Shown here: positions 36,663 to 43,298 of the stretch, in pieces
Position numbering within the stretch: position 1 is the stretch's first letter
Layout: each line of letters begins with the position of its first letter
Assembly (NCBI RefSeq): GCF_030586465.1
Contig: NZ_JAUQYP010000001.1
Coordinates: 2,693,946 to 2,757,945, forward strand
Direction of reading: 5' to 3'
From: Actinotalea lenta
Lineage (GTDB): Bacteria; Actinomycetota; Actinomycetes; Actinomycetales; Cellulomonadaceae
DNA: 64,000 bases
Notes under the pieces: model-generated
Seen by the model: only the letters and a program-made list of their open reading frames with translations
Told to the model about the DNA's origin: nothing
Databases searched by the model: none
Translations under genes and position numbers: made by a program

Positions 36663-37664
36663 ATGCGCGTCGCGCGCCTGCACGCCGCCCGAGACCTCCG
36701 GCTGTCCGTCGAGCCCGATGCCGTCGCGGGCGACGGCGAGAGCCTGATCCGCGTCGGCGCCGTCGGCATCTGCGGTTCCGACCTGCACTGGTGGACCGAG
36801 GGCAGCGTCGGTGAGACCGCCCTGGCCGACCCGGTGGTCCCGGGGCATGAGATGGCCGGCCACGTCGTCGGCGGCCCGTGGGACGGCCAGCTCGTCGCGA
36901 TCGATCCGGCGATCCCGTGCGGACGGTGCCCACGGTGCCTGGAGGGCGACCCGAACCTGTGCCCCGAGGTGCGGTTCGCGGGCCACGGCGGCACCGACGG
37001 CCCGCTGCGCGAGCTGATGGCCTGGCCGACGTCCCGGCTGCACCCGCTGCCGTCGTCGATGGATCCCGTGGACGGCGCCGTCCTCGAACCGCTCGGGGTG
37101 GCGCTGCACGCCGTGGACCTGGCACACGTGCGTCTCGGCATGACCGCAGCCGTCGTCGGCCTCGGACCGATCGGGCTGCTCGCGGTCCAGCTGCTGCGCG
37201 CTGCGGGCGCCGTGCGCGTGGTGGGCGTCGAGCCGCTACCCCACCGCCGCGAGGCGGCGCTCGCCGCCGGCGCCGACGACGCCGTGCCACCGCAGGACGC
37301 CGAGGCGCTCGGCGCGTCCCTGGGCGACGGCGCGGACGTCGTGCTGGAGATCGCCGGCAACGACGACGCGATCGCGACCGCCGTGGCGCTGGCCAGGCCT
37401 GGAGCACGTGTACTGCTCGCCGGCATCCCGAGCACCCCGGACAGCGCCTACCCGGCTGCCGTGGCGCGCCGCAAGGGCCTGAGCCTGCTCCTCGTGCGCC
37501 GCATGAAGGACGTCTACCCGCGCACGATCGCGCTGGTGCAGTCCGGGCTCGTGGACCTGGGCGACGTGGTGACCCACCGGTTCGGGCTCTCGGAGGCGGC
37601 CACGGGGTTCGACCGGGCCGCCGAGCGCGCCGGGCTCAAGACCGTGATCCTGCCCCAGTCCTGA
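36663..37664 (+). CDS. Zinc-dependent alcohol/polyol dehydrogenase (MDR family)
   Basis: A 333-residue medium-chain dehydrogenase resembling L-idonate 5-dehydrogenase and sorbitol dehydrogenases. Catalytic zinc ligands are in GICGSDLHWW and PGHEMAGHV; the structural zinc loop is CGRCPRCLEGDPNLC. The Rossmann NAD(P) motif GLGPIGLLAVQLL follows at about residue 165. The substrate is probably a sugar alcohol or aldonate, which is inference from closest resemblance. ATG 36663 is preceded by GAGGAG. It is monocistronic between two repeat-containing or regulatory gaps. Confidence 0.9.
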   Translation: MRVARLHAARDLRLSVEPDAVAGDGESLIRVGAVGICGSDLHWWTEGSVGETALADPVVPGHEMAGHVVGGPWDGQLVAIDPAIPCGRCPRCLEGDPNLCPEVRFAGHGGTDGPLRELMAWPTSRLHPLPSSMDPVDGAVLEPLGVALHAVDLAHVRLGMTAAVVGLGPIGLLAVQLLRAAGAVRVVGVEPLPHRREAALAAGADDAVPPQDAEALGASLGDGADVVLEIAGNDDAIATAVALARPGARVLLAGIPSTPDSAYPAAVARRKGLSLLLVRRMKDVYPRTIALVQSGLVDLGDVVTHRFGLSEAATGFDRAAERAGLKTVILPQS

Positions 37665-37699
37665 GCGCCGACCGGCCCGCGGCGCCCCGCTGTGGGCTC

Positions 37700-37727
37700 G
37701 CTGACGGCGCCGAGCGGCTGATACCCT
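37700..37727 (+). promoter_or_regulatory. Candidate rpsT promoter
   Basis: GCTGAC (37700-37705) and TACCCT (37722-37727) are spaced 16 bases in the 202-base gap before rpsT. This would give a 5' leader of about 130 bases, long enough to hold regulatory structure, though none was recognised. Confidence 0.4.
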
Positions 37728-37866
37728 AGGCGACCGCGTGTCCGCCCAGGTCGGCGGGCACAGGTCCGGATCCTCTCCGCGGGTGTCCCCACGCCCCAGT
37801 CCCGGGTTCGGGCACGTCCTCTACGACCTGTCAGATCGCTCCGGCGAACACACAAGAGAGTCAAAC

Positions 37867-38127
37867 GTGGCCAACATCAAGTCCCAGATCAAGCGGATCC
37901 GCACCAACGAGGCAGCCCGGCTGCGCAACAAGGCGGTGCGCTCCGAGCTCAAGACGCACGTCCGTCGGGTGCGCGACGCCGTCGCGGCCGGCGACAAGGA
38001 CGCCGCCGCCACGGCGCTGCGCACCGCCTCCACGAAGCTCGACAAGGCGGTCAGCAAGGGCGTGATCCACGCCAACCAGGCTGCCAACCGCAAGTCGTCG
38101 CTCGCGAAGCAGGTCGCCGGGCTCTGA
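37867..38127 (+). CDS. rpsT: 30S ribosomal protein S20
   Basis: A basic 86-residue protein, [28 protein letters not shown]-type N-terminus through [20 protein letters not shown], that binds 16S rRNA helices early in 30S assembly. The start is GTG, preceded by AAGAGAG. A perfect 15-bp terminator hairpin begins 28 bases after the stop. It is located between lepA and holA, as in most Actinobacteria, but on the strand opposite to both. Confidence 0.97.
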
Positions 38128-38154
38128 GCCGGTCGGCACACAGCAGACCACACG

Positions 38155-38187
38155 ACGAGGGTGCCTCCCGATGGGAGGCACCCTCGT
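38155..38187 (+). terminator. rpsT terminator
   Basis: Perfect 15-bp stem ACGAGGGTGCCTCCC / GGGAGGCACCCTCGT with a 3-base loop, followed by TTGC on the plus strand. It separates rpsT from the convergent XRE-TPR regulator gene. Confidence 0.85.
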
Positions 38188-38240
38188 TGCATCGCGTCGC
38201 CCCGACTCCCCCTGCCGGCCGGGAGGGACGTATCTCGACC

Positions 38241-39587
38241 TCAGGACTCGCCGAGCTCCCCGAAGCCGACGGCGAGCGGGAGGCGAGTGGTCATCGAGAA
38301 GGTCGTCGGGCGGATGCCCGCTTCGTCGAGGGCGGTGGCGTAGGCCCCCGACGCGCCGGCCGGGTCGCCGAGGGCCACCAGCCGGTCACCCAACGACCGC
38401 CACACCGAAGCGGACTGGCGGCCGGCGGACAGCATCGCGAGGCGATCGGCCGACCAGCGGTACTCCACGAGCGCCTCGTCGAGTCGGCCCGTCGCCGCCA
38501 GCGCGTCGCCCAGCACGATGTGCGCGTCGCACGCGTCGAAGTCGCCGCTGTCCCCGATGCGCTCGAGGCTCGCCCGGGTCAGCTCCTCGGCGCGGGCGGC
38601 ATCACCGAGCAGGAGGTGGGCACGGCCGGTCTCGAACATGCACCGTGCAAGCTCCAGCTCGGTACCGACGTTGACCAACCCCTCGGCGGCCGCCTGGAGC
38701 TGCTCGAGAGCCGCAACGGGCTCGGGCGGGTTGCTCCGCAGCAGCAGCCAGCCGTAGTGCAGCCGCAGACGCGGCACGTCCCGCGTCGGCTCCGCCTCGC
38801 TGAGGTATGCCAGGGCGCGCTCGGTGAGCCGGCGCGCTTCGGCGTACTCACCCCGGCCCTCGGCGACGAGGGACGCATTCCAGTAGACGCTCCCGCGGCC
38901 CCGCCGGGTGCCGTCCCGCTCGGCGAGCTCGATCAAGCCGGAGGCACGGTGCGCGGCGAACAGCAGGTCGCCGCGCTGGTAGTAGGACCACAGGATGGAC
39001 GACGCCAGGCGAAGGTGTTCGTCCGTGGCGGACAGGCCCGCGGCCTCGAGCTCCGCGAGGACCTCCTCGCCCAGCTCGATGCTGTGACTGAGGTCACCGG
39101 CCTCGACGTAGATCGCCACGAGGTAGGCGGCCTGGTTCGCGGCCTGCAGCCACCGCCCCTGCGAGCGCGCCTCGTTCAGGAGGGGCTCGAGCACGGAGAC
39201 GGCCGCGTCCAGGTCCCCGAGCGCCTCGTGAGCCTGGGCGAGCGCGAACCTCGCCTCGACGCGGTGCCGGGGTGCGATCGTCGAGAGGTCGAGCGCGAGC
39301 AGCCGCTCGCGCGCGTCCGCGGCCTCGCCGTTGGCCAGCGCGAGCCTCGCGTAGCCCAGCTCGAGCCGGGCGCGCTCCTCGCTCGGAGCCTTGTCGCCGT
39401 AGCGCAGGTAGTCGGGCGTCGTGCCCAGCCGCTCGGCCAGGACCGTCAGCGCCCGGTCGGTGGGCGTCCGGCGGCCCGCCTCGATCAAGGAGACGTAGGA
39501 AGGCGAGAAGTCGTCCCCGGCGAGCGCCGTCTGGGACAGGCCCGCGCGCACTCGTTCGGCGCGGACGCGATCGGAGAGCTCAGTCAC
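38241..39587 (-). CDS. XRE-family regulator with TPR-like C-terminal region
   Basis: A 448-residue cytoplasmic regulator. Residues 5-58 form an XRE helix-turn-helix (LSQTALAGDDFSPSYVSLIEAGRRTPTDRALTVL-type). The rest (about 70-430) is a run of helical pairs with TPR periodicity, such as ARFALAQAHEALGDLDAAVSVLEPLL and HIVLGDALAATGRLDEALVEYRW. This HTH plus TPR layout is that of peptide-binding regulators (RRNPP group: PlcR, Rgg, NprR). Its GTG start has AAGGTGATG upstream. A gene for a 42-residue exported peptide lies 201 bases upstream on the same strand, with an inverted repeat at its promoter. Peptide control is inference. Confidence 0.85.
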   Translation of the reverse strand: MTELSDRVRAERVRAGLSQTALAGDDFSPSYVSLIEAGRRTPTDRALTVLAERLGTTPDYLRYGDKAPSEERARLELGYARLALANGEAADARERLLALDLSTIAPRHRVEARFALAQAHEALGDLDAAVSVLEPLLNEARSQGRWLQAANQAAYLVAIYVEAGDLSHSIELGEEVLAELEAAGLSATDEHLRLASSILWSYYQRGDLLFAAHRASGLIELAERDGTRRGRGSVYWNASLVAEGRGEYAEARRLTERALAYLSEAEPTRDVPRLRLHYGWLLLRSNPPEPVAALEQLQAAAEGLVNVGTELELARCMFETGRAHLLLGDAARAEELTRASLERIGDSGDFDACDAHIVLGDALAATGRLDEALVEYRWSADRLAMLSAGRQSASVWRSLGDRLVALGDPAGASGAYATALDEAGIRPTTFSMTTRLPLAVGFGELGES

Positions 39588-39728
39588 AACACATCACCTT
39601 ATCCGTGACTTGCCGGGGATGACAGAGCCGGGAGGTCGGGAGCCTCCCGAACCGGGCGTTCCGGGTGCACAACCACCCGGATGGCTCAGCGCGTGCCCGC
39701 CCGTTGGGACGCAGCCTTGCTGGCCCCT

Positions 39729-39757
39729 GGGCCGCCGACGCACGCCGTCGGCGGCCC
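39729..39757 (-). terminator. Hairpin between the small peptide gene and the regulator
   Basis: GGGCCGCCGAC / GTCGGCGGCCC, an 11-bp perfect stem with a 7-base loop, 32 bases after the peptide stop. It could end or attenuate transcription before the regulator gene. The rest of the 201-base gap holds a second small dyad (GGGAGG / CCTCCC near 39631-39649) and a half-copy of the operator (ATGACAG, 39619-39625). Confidence 0.55.
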
Positions 39758-39788
39758 CGGGCCCGCGGAGAGGGATCCGCGAGGGTCG

Positions 39789-39917
39789 TCAGAACGACGC
39801 CTTGCAGCAGCCGGTGCTCTGCGTGCTCACGGTCGAGCCCCCACCCAGAGGCAGACCGACGATCGCGAGCGTGGCGGACAGCAGGGTGACGGTGGCGGCC
39901 TTGACGATGGTGGTCAT
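39789..39917 (-). CDS. Small exported peptide (42 residues), candidate signal pro-peptide
   Basis: The frame starts at ATG 39917 with GGAG 6 bases upstream. The product has a short basic n-region (MTTIVK), a hydrophobic core (about 7-24, ATVTLLSATLAIVGLPL) and a polar tail STVSTQSTGCCKASF with adjacent cysteines. This is the layout of a secretory pro-peptide. It has a good promoter (TGGACA, 16 bases, CATAGT) overlapped by a perfect 7-7-7 inverted repeat, and lies just upstream of an XRE-TPR regulator. No lantibiotic or other modification enzyme is nearby. A role as the regulator's signal is inference; a small toxin-like or antimicrobial peptide is an alternative. Confidence 0.65.
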   Translation of the reverse strand: MTTIVKAATVTLLSATLAIVGLPLGGGSTVSTQSTGCCKASF

Positions 39918-39938
39918 CGTGAACTCCTCGTTCGGGGA

Positions 39939-39959
39939 CTGTCATCATCACTATGACAG
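39939..39959. promoter_or_regulatory. Inverted repeat operator at the small-peptide promoter
   Basis: CTGTCAT-N7-ATGACAG, perfect 7-bp arms, covers the -10 hexamer of the small peptide gene. The likeliest ligand is the neighbouring XRE-TPR regulator. A single ATGACAG half-site recurs at 39619-39625, before the regulator gene. Confidence 0.65.
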
Positions 39960-39977
39960 ACTTCCGCGCGTTGTCCA
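39950..39977 (-). promoter_or_regulatory. Promoter of the small exported peptide
   Basis: Minus strand -35 TGGACA (39977-39972, 5 of 6) and -10 CATAGT (39955-39950) with a 16-base spacer. The predicted 5' leader is about 25 bases and ends with the GGAG site. Confidence 0.65.
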
Positions 39978-40032
39978 GCCCTGAACGGCGTGGCCAAATG
40001 CCTCTTTCCTGCACAAACGCGACCGAAATCGA

Positions 40033-40048
40033 TGTGATGTTCGTCACG
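40033..40048. promoter_or_regulatory. CRP/GlxR-like site
   Basis: TGTGATGTTCGTCACG fits the TGTGA-N6-TCACa pattern recognised by CRP-family regulators (GlxR in Actinobacteria), with one mismatch at the last base. It lies about 55 bases upstream of the -35 of the small peptide promoter. Confidence 0.45.
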
Positions 40049-40078
40049 CCTAGCTAAGAGTTCATTCGCAGGACATGC

Positions 40079-40103
40079 CTGAGTCACATGTGTTATGACT
40101 CAG
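40079..40103. repeat. Inverted repeat at the end of holA
   Basis: CTGAGTCA-N9-TGACTCAG, perfect 8-bp arms, spans the holA stop codon. It is AT-richer than the surroundings. It could be a weak holA terminator or a protein-binding site; no T-run follows. Confidence 0.5.
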
Positions 40104-41110
40104 TTCCCCGCCGCGGCCGCGATCCGCAGCACGGCCCGCTCGACGGCGAAGACCGGGTCACGCCCGGCTCCCTTCACCTCGGCGTCCGCCTGCGCGACCG
40201 CCGTGATCGCCGCCGCCAAGGTCTCCGGTCGCCATGCGGTCAGCTCGCGGCGCGCCCGGTCCATCTGCCACGGTGCCATCCCGAGGTCACCCGCCGTCAG
40301 CCCGCGTCCTCGTGCCGCCGCCACCTTGGCCAGCACCCGGAGCCGGACAGCCAGGGCGGCCACCAAGGGCACCGGGTCGGTGCCGGTCGCCACGGCGTGA
40401 CGCAGGAGCGCAACCGCCTCGCCGGCGCGACCGGCCACGGCGGCGTCGGCGACCCGGAAGCCGGTGGCCTCCACGCGGCCGCCGTAGTAGCGCGTCACGA
40501 CGTCGGCCCCGATCACGCCCGTCGTGTCCGCGAGGAGCTGCTGGCACGCAGCCGCGAGCTCGCGCAGGTCCGCACCGCACGCCTCGACCAGCGCGCGCAC
40601 CGCCGCCGGCTCGGCGCGGCGCCCGCCGCGGCGAAGCTCCGCTACCGCGAAGTCCGTCTTGTCGCTGTCGCGCTTGACCGGGTCGCACGCGACCTCGGTG
40701 GCCCCGGCGGCGCGCACCGCATCCAGGGTCGGCCGCCCACGGTTGCCACCGCCGTGCACCGCGACGAGCACGACGTCCGGCTCCGGCGCTCCGGCATACG
40801 CCTTGAGGTCTGCGAAGGCGGCGTCCGTGCCCGCCTCGAGCCCACCCAGCACGACGACTCGTGGCTCGCCGAACAACGAGGCGCTCGTCGCGACCCCCAG
40901 CCGACCCGGCTCGTACCCGGCCGCCTCCAGCCGGGTCACCTCGACCTCCGGGTCCTCGGCTCGGGCCTGCTGCACGACCCGATCGACCGCACGCTCGGCG
41001 AGCAGGCCCTCCGGACCCGTGACGAGCACCAAGGGCGCCGGGGTCACCTTGTCCCAGGGGATCGTCGTCGCGCGCGCCACGGAGCACAGCCTGCCACGTG
41101 CCGCCGTCAT
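40100..41110 (-). CDS. holA: DNA polymerase III subunit delta
   Basis: The clamp-loader delta subunit, 336 residues, which opens the sliding clamp. It shows APLVLVTGPEGLLAERAVDRVV at the N-terminal AAA-like domain, VVVLGGLEAG, and the C-terminal helical region (WQMDRARRELTAWRPETLAAAITAVAQADAEVKG) that assembles the pentamer. The protein is divergent in sequence, as HolA usually is, but its position between comEC and rpsT is the standard one. The ATG overlaps the comEC stop by 4 bases; a downstream GTG is possible. Confidence 0.92.
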   Translation of the reverse strand: MTAARGRLCSVARATTIPWDKVTPAPLVLVTGPEGLLAERAVDRVVQQARAEDPEVEVTRLEAAGYEPGRLGVATSASLFGEPRVVVLGGLEAGTDAAFADLKAYAGAPEPDVVLVAVHGGGNRGRPTLDAVRAAGATEVACDPVKRDSDKTDFAVAELRRGGRRAEPAAVRALVEACGADLRELAAACQQLLADTTGVIGADVVTRYYGGRVEATGFRVADAAVAGRAGEAVALLRHAVATGTDPVPLVAALAVRLRVLAKVAAARGRGLTAGDLGMAPWQMDRARRELTAWRPETLAAAITAVAQADAEVKGAGRDPVFAVERAVLRIAAAAGN

Positions 41111-42615
41111 CGTCGGCGCCGCCCGCGCTCGGCGAGCAGCGCCCGTCCCGCGCACCAGGCCGCCCCGGTGAGTGCCGCGAGCGCGACCGCCCCGCCGGGA
41201 CCCCCGTGCCATGGTGTCCGCGCGCCCGGGAGCGTGGCGACCACGCGCGCGACGGTGGCGATCCACGTGGCAGGGATCGCGGCGACGGCCGCCACGGCCC
41301 CGGCCGGCGCCGGAGCCACGGGCCCCAGGAGGAGCGTCACGAGCCCCAGCACGGTGACGGGTACCACGGCCGGTGCCGCGACGAGGTTGGCCGGCACCGC
41401 CCACGGGGTGACGACGGGGTCCACCAGCGCCAGGACGGGACCGACGGCGCTCTGCGCCGCCAGCGGGACCGTGACTGCCAGCCACCACCGTCGCGTCCGG
41501 TCGGTGCGGCCCAGCGCCCGGGCAGCCGGCCCCGCCAGCAGCACGATCGCCGCCGTGGCAGCCACCGACAGCCGGAAGCCGAGCGTGCCGGTCGCCCACG
41601 GGTCCACCACGACCAACACCACGACCACCGCGGCGAGCGCGGGAAGCGGCACCGCACGGCGTCCGACGCCGAGCCCGATCGCCCCGACCGCACCGGTGGC
41701 CACGGCGCGGAGCACCGCCGCTCCCCCACCGACGACCACCGCGAACGCCACGGCGGCCAGGGCCGCGGCACCGGCGCGGACCCACCGCGGCGCGCGCACC
41801 GCTCCCGTCGCCGCGAGCGCCAGCATCACCACGACGGCGACGTGCTGACCGGAGACCGCCACCAGGTGGGCGAGACCGGCGGCGCGCAGCGCGTCGGCGA
41901 GCTCTGGGGCGACCTGCGAGGTGTCGCCGACGGTGCTGCCAGGCACGAGCCCCCGGGCGTCGGCCGGAAGCCCGGCAGTGGCGGTGCGCAGGCCGTCCCT
42001 CAGCCGGGCGACCGCCGCCTGCGCGGGCGGCGGCCCACGCAGCGCGGTGGCGGACGTCGCGGTCAGCACCGCGGACTGCGCCCCTCGCGCGGCTGCGAGG
42101 CGCCCGACGACCCGCAGCCGCGTGCCGGGCGGGTGGTCGAGCCCCGCGCCATCCCCCACGATGAGGACGTCGGCTCGGGTGCGTGTCGTCGTTCCTCCCA
42201 CGGTCACGGCTGTCAGACGCATCCTCGTGCGCACCCGGTACACCTCCGGCGCCCACGGGGCCCGGTCGGCGACCGGGTGTGCCGTGAGCGTGCCGACCGC
42301 GATGACCACGGCACCTCGCGCGGCCGCGGCGGCCACCGGTCCCCGCTCGCGCGCGGCCAGCTGCACGGCACAGGACAGCAGGACGGCTGCCGCCGCCGCG
42401 AGCGCGACCACGACCGGCCCGGCCGACGGCGGCCGGGCGGACCGGTGCCGACCACGTCCGGGTAGCACCGTGGCGGCGACGACGGCGCCGCACCCGAGGG
42501 CGAGGACGAGCCCGGCCACGGCTCCGCGGGCGGTGAGCCGGGTCCCGACCGTCGCAGCCAGCCAAGCGGCGACCGCGGCGGGCACGAGCCGCAGGTCGAG
42601 CGGCCCGACGCTCAC
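41107..42615 (-). CDS. comEC: ComEC/Rec2 DNA-uptake channel, lacking the metallo-beta-lactamase domain
   Basis: Inner-membrane channel thought to carry transforming single-stranded DNA. The 502-residue protein has N-terminal helices, a DUF4131-like soluble region (about 115-215, RADVLIVGDGAGLDHPPGTRLRVVG) and the Competence domain with the signature GLAHLVAVSGQHVAVVVM and GFRLSVAATAAIVLL. It stops soon after the last helices and lacks the C-terminal metallo-beta-lactamase domain that many full-length ComEC proteins carry. The GTG overlaps the comEA stop (GTGA) and its stop overlaps holA. Confidence 0.92.
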   Translation of the reverse strand: MSVGPLDLRLVPAAVAAWLAATVGTRLTARGAVAGLVLALGCGAVVAATVLPGRGRHRSARPPSAGPVVVALAAAAAVLLSCAVQLAARERGPVAAAAARGAVVIAVGTLTAHPVADRAPWAPEVYRVRTRMRLTAVTVGGTTTRTRADVLIVGDGAGLDHPPGTRLRVVGRLAAARGAQSAVLTATSATALRGPPPAQAAVARLRDGLRTATAGLPADARGLVPGSTVGDTSQVAPELADALRAAGLAHLVAVSGQHVAVVVMLALAATGAVRAPRWVRAGAAALAAVAFAVVVGGGAAVLRAVATGAVGAIGLGVGRRAVPLPALAAVVVVLVVVDPWATGTLGFRLSVAATAAIVLLAGPAARALGRTDRTRRWWLAVTVPLAAQSAVGPVLALVDPVVTPWAVPANLVAAPAVVPVTVLGLVTLLLGPVAPAPAGAVAAVAAIPATWIATVARVVATLPGARTPWHGGPGGAVALAALTGAAWCAGRALLAERGRRRR

Positions 42616-43298
42616 ACGCGCACCTGGCCGCGCAGGTCGGCGAGCAGGTTCGGACCGATACCGGTCACCTCCGCGAGCTCGTCGACCGAGGAGAACCGAC
42701 CGTGCTCGGTGCGCCAGGCCACGATCCGCCTGGCGAGCACCGGGCCGATGCCCGGCAGCGCCTCCAGGTCGGCTGCGTCGGCACTGTTGAGGTCGAGGCC
42801 CGGCTGTTGCGCGGTGGCCGTCCCGGGCCCAGGGACCACCACCTGCTCGCCGTCGTCCAGCACGCGGGCCAGGTTCACCGCCGCCACCTGAGCGTCGGCG
42901 GTCGGGCCGCCGGCGGCATCCAGCGCGTCGACCACCCGCGAGCCGGCCGGCAGGTGGACGACGCCGGGCGCGCGCACCTCGCCGACGACGTCGACCACCA
43001 CCTCGCCGGTCGTACCGGACGTGGGCGTGGCATCGGCAGGCAACGTGACGAGCACCGCGGGCTCGGCTGGCCATGAGCGCCACGCGACCACGCCCGCGAG
43101 CAGGAGCAGCAGGCCACCGGCCGCAAGCGCCACCGCGGGCCGGATCCGCCAGCGCGCTACCGGCCGGGTCGGGGTGGGCCCGGAACGCGCCGCAGCCTCG
43201 AGGGCTCGTCGCGTCCGCTCCCGCGCCCCCTGGAGCAGGTCCTCCCGGTCGGGCGGCCGGGTCAGGCCGGCCAGGCGGTCACGGGCGTCGGTCGTCAC
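42612..43298 (-). CDS. comEA: ComEA-like DNA-binding protein
   Basis: The 228-residue membrane-anchored DNA receptor has a cytoplasmic N-terminus, one membrane helix (about 53-72, AVALAAGGLLLLLAGVVAW), an SLBB/soluble ligand domain (VVDVVGEVRAPGVVHLPAGSRV) and a C-terminal double helix-hairpin-helix (LNSADAADLEALPGIGPVLARRIVAWR, then LAEVTGIGPNLLADLR). It passes DNA to ComEC during uptake. The GTG start is 104 bases from leuS; that gap contains a short GTCCGGG hairpin at 43328-43345. Confidence 0.94.
   Translation of the reverse strand: MTTDARDRLAGLTRPPDREDLLQGARERTRRALEAAARSGPTPTRPVARWRIRPAVALAAGGLLLLLAGVVAWRSWPAEPAVLVTLPADATPTSGTTGEVVVDVVGEVRAPGVVHLPAGSRVVDALDAAGGPTADAQVAAVNLARVLDDGEQVVVPGPGTATAQQPGLDLNSADAADLEALPGIGPVLARRIVAWRTEHGRFSSVDELAEVTGIGPNLLADLRGQVRV

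Follow-up and report, generated by a model that had tools for sequence, protein, structure and literature searches.

Among the peptide-sensing systems grouped as RRNPP, PlcR-PapR unites a receptor composed of an XRE-type helix-turn-helix (HTH) and, following it, tetratricopeptide repeats (TPRs) with PapR, a small secreted precursor encoded adjacent to it whose signal lies in the C-terminal tail. In Rgg-SHP and ComR-ComS the precursor next to an HTH-helical-repeat receptor is hydrophobic and very short, and in NprR-NprX and Rap-Phr the peptide receptor is a TPR domain. The locus considered here comes from the actinobacterium Actinotalea lenta (Cellulomonadaceae): in the 64,000-nucleotide stretch of contig NZ_JAUQYP010000001.1 that was analysed (hereafter the window, with positions counted from its first letter), a gene for a 42-residue peptide lies upstream, on the same strand, of a gene for an XRE-TPR regulator, with 201 bp between the stop of the one and the start of the other. 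A first-pass annotation had read the two as a possible peptide-regulator signalling pair, and that reading is supported by the recurrence of the small open reading frame (ORF) at 77 of 77 orthologous loci, by purifying selection, by persistence of the pairing through rearrangement and by its spread beyond Cellulomonadaceae. On balance we judge it probable that peptide and regulator form a peptide-sensing circuit, working like the Firmicutes RRNPP systems, with the exported tail as ligand and with both genes under its control. The comparative grounds suggesting this are an export-like N-terminus, a conserved short tail, adjacency kept through rearrangement and a palindrome common to both promoters; on present evidence it behaves as an RRNPP system would, and it may belong to that group.

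There are also differences. PlcR belongs to another phylum, and its chains are of 280-284 aa against some 450 for the regulator; the window pair is further unlike PlcR-PapR in its di-cysteine tails, in predicted operators that lie over the pair's own -10 boxes and in having no established wider regulon. Rgg-SHP and ComR-ComS are resembled in size by the short W-P-tailed precursors of other actinobacterial classes, and we know of no cysteine pair in SHP or XIP, unlike the peptides here. Rap, to our knowledge, has no HTH, unlike the regulator, and shares with it the TPR domain.

A five-criterion signature for such systems (RRNPP_detector; Bernard et al. 2023, PMC10075063) takes a precursor of 10-100 aa, a Sec-type signal by SignalP, a receptor of 250-500 aa, TPRs and direct neighbourhood of the two genes. 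The large RRNPP survey of that paper covered Firmicutes and viruses only, and the paper assigns oligopeptide signals to Firmicutes and presents those of Actinomycetota as small molecules made by enzymes (PMC10075063). A search of the open literature, exclusive of preprints and reaching few subscription journals, returned no description of a peptide-regulator pair of this kind in Actinomycetota. Were the circuit real, actinobacteria may use peptide self-sensing like that known mainly from Firmicutes, and a gene-encoded peptide-receptor system would add a new layer of regulation across a phylum in which antibiotic producers are numerous. The proposal is directly testable because operator, promoters and candidate peptide can each be named from the sequence.

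The peptide gene and its orthologues

The coordinates, strand and translation that the annotation had given the 42-residue frame, together with its good Shine-Dalgarno sequence, were confirmed. For comparison, Cellulomonadaceae regulator loci were fetched at 49% identity or more (the CelA set); its 80 rows represent 77 distinct loci, with L004/L007, L005/L008 and L006/L021 being duplicate fetches. The first scan for mini-ORFs had a Shine-Dalgarno sequence and a hydrophobic N-terminus as its criteria, left the tail unconstrained and did not require a CC motif, which a later ORF selection step did; it found a mini-ORF in 79 of the 80 rows, and the one missed, in L016, was recovered by a scan without the Shine-Dalgarno filter. 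Two of the three checks to which the annotation had pointed concern a small ORF at the equivalent place in homologous loci and selection on the 42-codon frame. Both came out in favour of the pair: the mini-ORF stands upstream on the same strand at every one of the 77 distinct loci, 67-364 bp from the regulator, and selection on it is purifying, with a ratio of non-synonymous to synonymous substitution (dN/dS) of 0.35 over 20 independent close pairs and of 0.33 for the last 14 codons.

The 73 distinct orthologous peptides are 39-48 aa long, and all have Cys-Cys near the C-terminus, preceded by Gly in 71 and followed by Arg or Lys in 70 (nearly always GCC[K/R]). Set beside the RRNPP signature, the precursor has 42 aa in the window and a similar length in the orthologues, the receptor has 448 aa and TPRs, and the two are direct neighbours at 77/77 CelA loci. 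The Sec-type signal was gauged from residue composition: Lys or Arg occurs within the first 8 residues in 72/73 peptides, Asp and Glu are absent from the first 24 in 73/73, and an AxA motif is present at positions 18-32 in 54/73, not clearly so in the window's own peptide. The latter is probably an export-type precursor, to judge from its basic N-terminus and hydrophobic core. Neither NCBIfam nor Pfam holds a model for it.

Regulator matches were found in 112 of 200 family genomes, the weak ones mostly to the HTH only; the G140 orthologue, at a contig edge, and 10 of the 23 second-copy rows of this search are outside the fetched set. In a sample of the order, the peptide profile scored below an expectation value (E) of 1e-8 in exactly the 12 of 35 family genomes that have the full regulator, and no match that good occurred in the other 361 genomes, where the best, at 1e-6, covered the hydrophobic N-terminal part only.

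A second type of regulator (CelB; 11 loci, 36-40% identity) occurs in Cellulomonas genomes, with its peptides encoded downstream, carrying a PCCK motif and present in up to four tandem copies. At L092 and L093 four tandem PCCK variants follow one CelB regulator, and at L085, L087 and L088 there are two. A second XRE-TPR gene, diverged (34-35% identity), stands immediately upstream of the peptide-regulator pair at L076 and L077.

The regulator and its pairing across the phylum

Domains, coordinates and strand of the 448-residue regulator are as the annotation had them: Pfam places HTH_31/HTH_3 at residues 3-61, and TPR_2, TPR_19, TPR_12 and TPR_14 score above their cut-offs. The AlphaFold2 model is all-helical (mean confidence score, pLDDT, 88.3), and Foldseek with this model retrieved the PlcR-PapR structures 3u3w and 2qfc at ranks 25 and 36 and Rap-CSF (4gyo) at rank 40; a sequence search of the PDB gave nothing beyond weak matches, which fell on the HTH or on generic or designed repeats. 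An alignment of 34 diverse regulators shows no variation at W236 and G206 and almost none at R205, D207 and N237. The model places these residues in the TPR region, in turns or helices, where R205-G206-D207 and W236-N237 would line the groove. The nearest named records by regulator identity are from Actinotalea (89%), from a metagenome-assembled genome labelled Actinomycetales (86%) and again from Actinotalea (65%), and a protein search of the window's genome revealed no second copy.

Does the pairing extend beyond the family? When the regulator alignment was searched against the class, 62 of 394 genomes from 28 genera in all, the window's own included, matched at E<=1e-30; 69 of the 84 non-window rows were fetched, the remainder being second or partial matches. 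Hydrophobic short ORFs were counted on both strands within 600 bp of these 69 regulators, which belong to eight other families. Exactly CC is the C-terminus of 51 of the 109 ORFs so found, the next commonest ending accounting for 5, and a CC-ending ORF, usually divergent from the regulator, is present at 47 of the 69 loci (2/3, 20/21, 5/5, 7/12, 1/1, 8/21, 1/1 and 3/5 by family). In controls there were none in 20 Markov shuffles, and none among the 172 short ORFs of ordinary DNA sampled from 13 of the searched genomes (400 kb in total). A chance ORF was rejected on this count of 0/172 together with the recurrence at the orthologous loci. In L141, L146, L147 and L150 an extra, different CC-ending peptide (such as ..DGGSDFCC) is encoded some 1440-1680 bases past the regulator start on the opposite strand, in genomes that also carry the divergent CC peptide. 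Plasmids were looked at as well: of 16 records with a homologue 7 were opened, and 3 have a CC-ending ORF, which is divergent and adjacent in the first, 143 bp downstream in another and 1.9 kb off in the third.

Phylum-wide, 29 loci were taken from 38 non-window rows and tail types were assigned by reading. An ORF of 28-54 aa with an aromatic-Pro or CC tail (..YPWPK, ..NWPHH, ..PWPHCC) is present at 14 of the 29, whereas of the 172 control ORFs one has an aromatic-Pro tail and none ends in CC; at four of the five f37 loci there are divergent hydrophobic ORFs with neither kind of tail. On a tree of 100 regulators, made by a quick method, with several long branches and with orientation and tail labels assigned by reading, the orientation of the peptide gene changed at least 8 times with the pairing kept, and the tail type 3 times. 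The tree took in 29 CelA and 8 of the 11 CelB loci and left out 13 near-identical class-level loci and the short L204 and L207. A phage module was rejected, since the one scan made of viral contigs with the regulator alignment gave a single HTH-only relative.

Promoters, palindromes and a proposed circuit

The palindrome GTCA-N9-TGAC recurs at three places in the CelA rows: upstream of the peptide promoter (O0, in 66 of the 80), at that promoter (O1, 59) and at the regulator's (O2, 64). At least one site is present in every row, at least two in 76 and all three in 33; shuffles gave at most 0.14, and there were none in the first ~1200 nt of each regulator coding body. In the window O2 departs from the consensus at its last base (Table 1), and O1 is found as GTCAY-N7-RTGAC in 44 rows and O2 as GTCA-N7to9-RTGA in 71. 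O0 and O1 are 142-203 bp apart, commonly 164-165. A leaderless-type -10 box (TAnnnT) just before the regulator start codon is present in 66 of 67 distinct upstream sequences.

Table 1. Features of the locus and its surroundings in the window
Feature	Positions	Strand	Remarks
Regulator gene, XRE HTH and TPRs, 448 aa, GTG start	38241..39587	-	Pfam, AlphaFold2 model, alignments
Operator O2 (predicted), GTCACGGATAAGGTGAT	39593..39609	-	encloses the regulator's leaderless -10 TAAGGT (39596-39601)
GC-rich hairpin, 12-bp, between peptide gene and regulator	39729..39757	-	not conserved across loci
Peptide gene, 42 aa	39789..39917	-	42-codon ORF; basic N-terminus, hydrophobic core, tail STVSTQSTGCCKASF
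Shine-Dalgarno sequence of the peptide gene, GAGGAG	39924..39929	-	sequence
Operator O1 (predicted), GTCATAGTGATGATGAC	39941..39957	-	overlaps the putative -10 of the peptide promoter
Putative peptide promoter	-10 CATAGT 39950-39955; -35 TGGACA 39972-39977	-	named by eye
Operator O0 (predicted), GTCATAACACATGTGAC	40083..40099	-	142 bp upstream of O1, abuts the holA stop
comEC-/comEA-like competence genes	41107..43298	-	just past holA; by eye from translations

In the window's genus the palindrome at the peptide promoter takes the somewhat variable form TGTCATAGTnnnnrTGACA. The form TGTCAYN7RTGACA has its single occurrence in the window's genome at that promoter; it is found in 17 of 19 genomes of the genus, two being without the exact form. 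All 17 have it at their peptide promoter, and four have one more copy elsewhere. Upstream of the CC peptides in other families (17 genera) TGAC half-sites are enriched (TGACA 21 against 5.4, GTCAT 26 against 4.75), with the caveat that TTGAC doubles as a -35 consensus. That the best operators are local fits a self-regulated circuit, and the position of O1 and O2 over -10 boxes suggests that the regulator may repress or switch both promoters, thus controlling the peptide and itself.

How might the parts work together? The precursor would be exported by the Sec route and cut down to a C-terminal fragment that includes GCC[K/R], which may then re-enter through an oligopeptide permease. The annotation had noted no such permease in the window, where no Opp-type binding protein is encoded; the three such proteins (SBP_bac_5) elsewhere in the genome make import possible. 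Within the cell the peptide would bind the concave TPR face near W236-N237 and R205-G206-D207 and so alter the occupancy by a dimeric HTH of the palindromes that cover the -10 boxes of peptide and regulator gene alike. The simplest outcome would be relief of repression, giving a threshold switch, with the sign of regulation likewise presumed. That the tail may be the natural ligand is argued by its conservation within lineages, its place beside a TPR receptor and its staying with that receptor through rearrangement.

An output can be proposed for part of the family. A gene of ~240 aa resembling EAL proteins lies within the fetched flanks of 59 of the 80 CelA rows (for instance L043, from G020), with matches to Pfam EAL (E 4e-12 to 2e-15) that take in roughly the C-terminal half of the profile; the gene is divergent, and in 51 rows its start codon falls inside the right half of the O0-type operator. 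By this overlap the gene, of cyclic-di-GMP type, is a candidate output of the circuit in the Cellulomonadaceae rows that have it. The window and most of its genus are without an adjoining EAL-like gene, several of them keeping O0, and in L009 and L023, of the same genus, it is on the far side of the regulator. Its active-site region looks degenerate in some cases (AYQLSFR, where others have GYELAFR). The window's genome, of 3.3 Mb, has 19 EAL-domain matches, none of them in the window.

A palindrome search allowing one mismatch found four further sites in the window's genome and five in each of two close genomes. One of the four (L312, G000:C1:1323659-1323677) occupies the homologous intergenic place to a site in a close genome (L325, G147:C28:14503-14521), 3' of promoter-like sequence and 5' of a gene that resembles, by eye, an Rpf-type wall protein; this is the sole candidate for a target outside the locus. 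The same one-mismatch search gave no match of this type in G099, and the site belongs to no Rfam family. The window's genome has 38 copies of the shorter GTCAYN7RTGAC against one of a control, and G147 has identical copies of two more 17-mers that lie outside clear frames (L308, L327).

Several findings weigh against the circuit as proposed. By eye the window's own peptide has no clear AxA cleavage site, and at the diverged family loci L082 and L083 (which also carry the EAL-like gene) no peptide was found. Generic TPR proteins outrank PlcR in the Foldseek list, and by sequence known receptors are matched weakly and in the HTH, ComR at E 0.0086 with the HTH alone. No ORF ending exactly in CC is present at 22 of the 69 class-level loci: seven of these keep a divergent mini-ORF whose N-terminus is related but whose tail is different, tryptophan-rich in six (such as ..WGWPG), L212 has an ORF ending CCG, and at 14, two of them with less than 300 bp of upstream DNA, no mini-ORF was recognised. 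Of the distant GTCAYN7RTGAC sites 21 of 35 fall in stop-free frames of more than 100 codons with high G+C at third codon positions, and no regulon was drawn from them because these are clear coding frames; with one mismatch allowed, a single distant intergenic site is shared by position between two of the three close genomes compared, and no regulon beyond the locus is established. Export, import, processing, binding, regulation and expression are all steps that we infer. A clade with 8-9-Mb genomes (L193, L198, L199, L202, L203, L205) keeps the divergent mini-ORF with Trp-rich tails (..YGWGWPG, ..WQWPI) in place of CC.

A broader view can be put forward more tentatively, as possible and rather doubtful: that there is an undescribed, phylum-wide class in Actinomycetota of XRE-TPR receptors with exported mini-peptides bearing a lineage-specific tail code (GCC[K/R]; PCCK; terminal ..CC; aromatic-Pro with or without CC). 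In many lineages vicinal cysteines, as a disulfide, metal-bound or modified, would be the chemical core of the signal, and the circuit would report on redox or metal state in addition to the level of peptide; in Cellulomonadaceae it would be wired to the cyclic-di-GMP-type gene.

Other readings and the surroundings of the locus

The explanation that competes best with the peptide-sensing circuit, itself unlikely, is that the peptide is a product rather than a ligand, a secreted bacteriocin-like, hormone-like or envelope peptide, with the XRE-TPR repressor autoregulating and sensing something else. In its favour, the best operators lie at the locus itself, which would suit a peptide that is the main output, and at CelB loci there are up to four tandem peptide genes; multi-copy precursors, however, are found in RRNPP systems too. 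For a ligand and its receptor one would expect what is seen, a dedicated TPR receptor of 450 aa that stays beside the peptide in many families through at least 8 changes of orientation, and the palindrome is found also at the EAL-like gene and at one distant intergenic site.

Less probable again is a membrane-anchored sensor of redox, metal or envelope state, in which the mini-protein would stay in the membrane, its vicinal cysteines sensing the outside and the regulator being titrated or released. Retention of the cysteine pair in the tails of many lineages would suit such a sensor, as would precursors of 28-36 aa that are almost wholly membrane segment. The positive-inside charge, however, would put the tail outside, away from a cytosolic regulator, and in some lineages the tails (..WGWPG, ..YPWPK) are cysteine-free.

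A toxin-antitoxin-like pair, with a small hydrophobic toxin repressed by its XRE partner, is very improbable. The product is indeed small and hydrophobic and its neighbour an XRE regulator, which the HTH of the antitoxin family couple_hipB matches at E 0.0015, below its cut-off. Against this the chromosomal place is stable, with rpsT downstream in 77 of the 80 CelA rows and holA upstream in 44, where the fetched flank reaches; the polar tail is conserved, a TPR domain of more than 350 residues would be superfluous for an antitoxin, and viral contigs offered nothing beyond the one HTH-only relative.

Polycysteine leader-peptide attenuators have been proposed for mycobacteria, and the locus resembles them in being actinobacterial and in having a short ORF whose Cys codons are adjacent. 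A cysteine-responsive leader, with stalling at the Cys codons attenuating the regulator gene downstream, would suit the window, where the ORF is upstream on the same strand with an intervening hairpin, but was rejected as scarcely credible, being contradicted by the divergent or downstream, and so not leader-placed, ORF of most other lineages; the regulator's own predicted leaderless promoter past the hairpin, with its box in 66/67 sequences, and conservation of the export-like hydrophobic N-terminus and not of the hairpin also argue against it.

The genes that flank the pair on its two sides in the window, holA and rpsT, were named by eye from translations. A link of the peptide-regulator pair to the comEA- and comEC-like genes was considered only by way of TGTCAYN7RTGACA, which occurs nowhere else in the genome than at the peptide promoter. 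No Rfam family matched at E<=1 across 37600-41200. The hairpin that the annotation had placed between the two genes is there in the window, but is no conserved feature: perfect stems of at least 7 bp occur in 24 of 80 intergenic regions, for which reason it was rejected as a conserved element, against 4-14 in ten mononucleotide shuffles, so that hairpins are above chance yet present in under a third of the loci.

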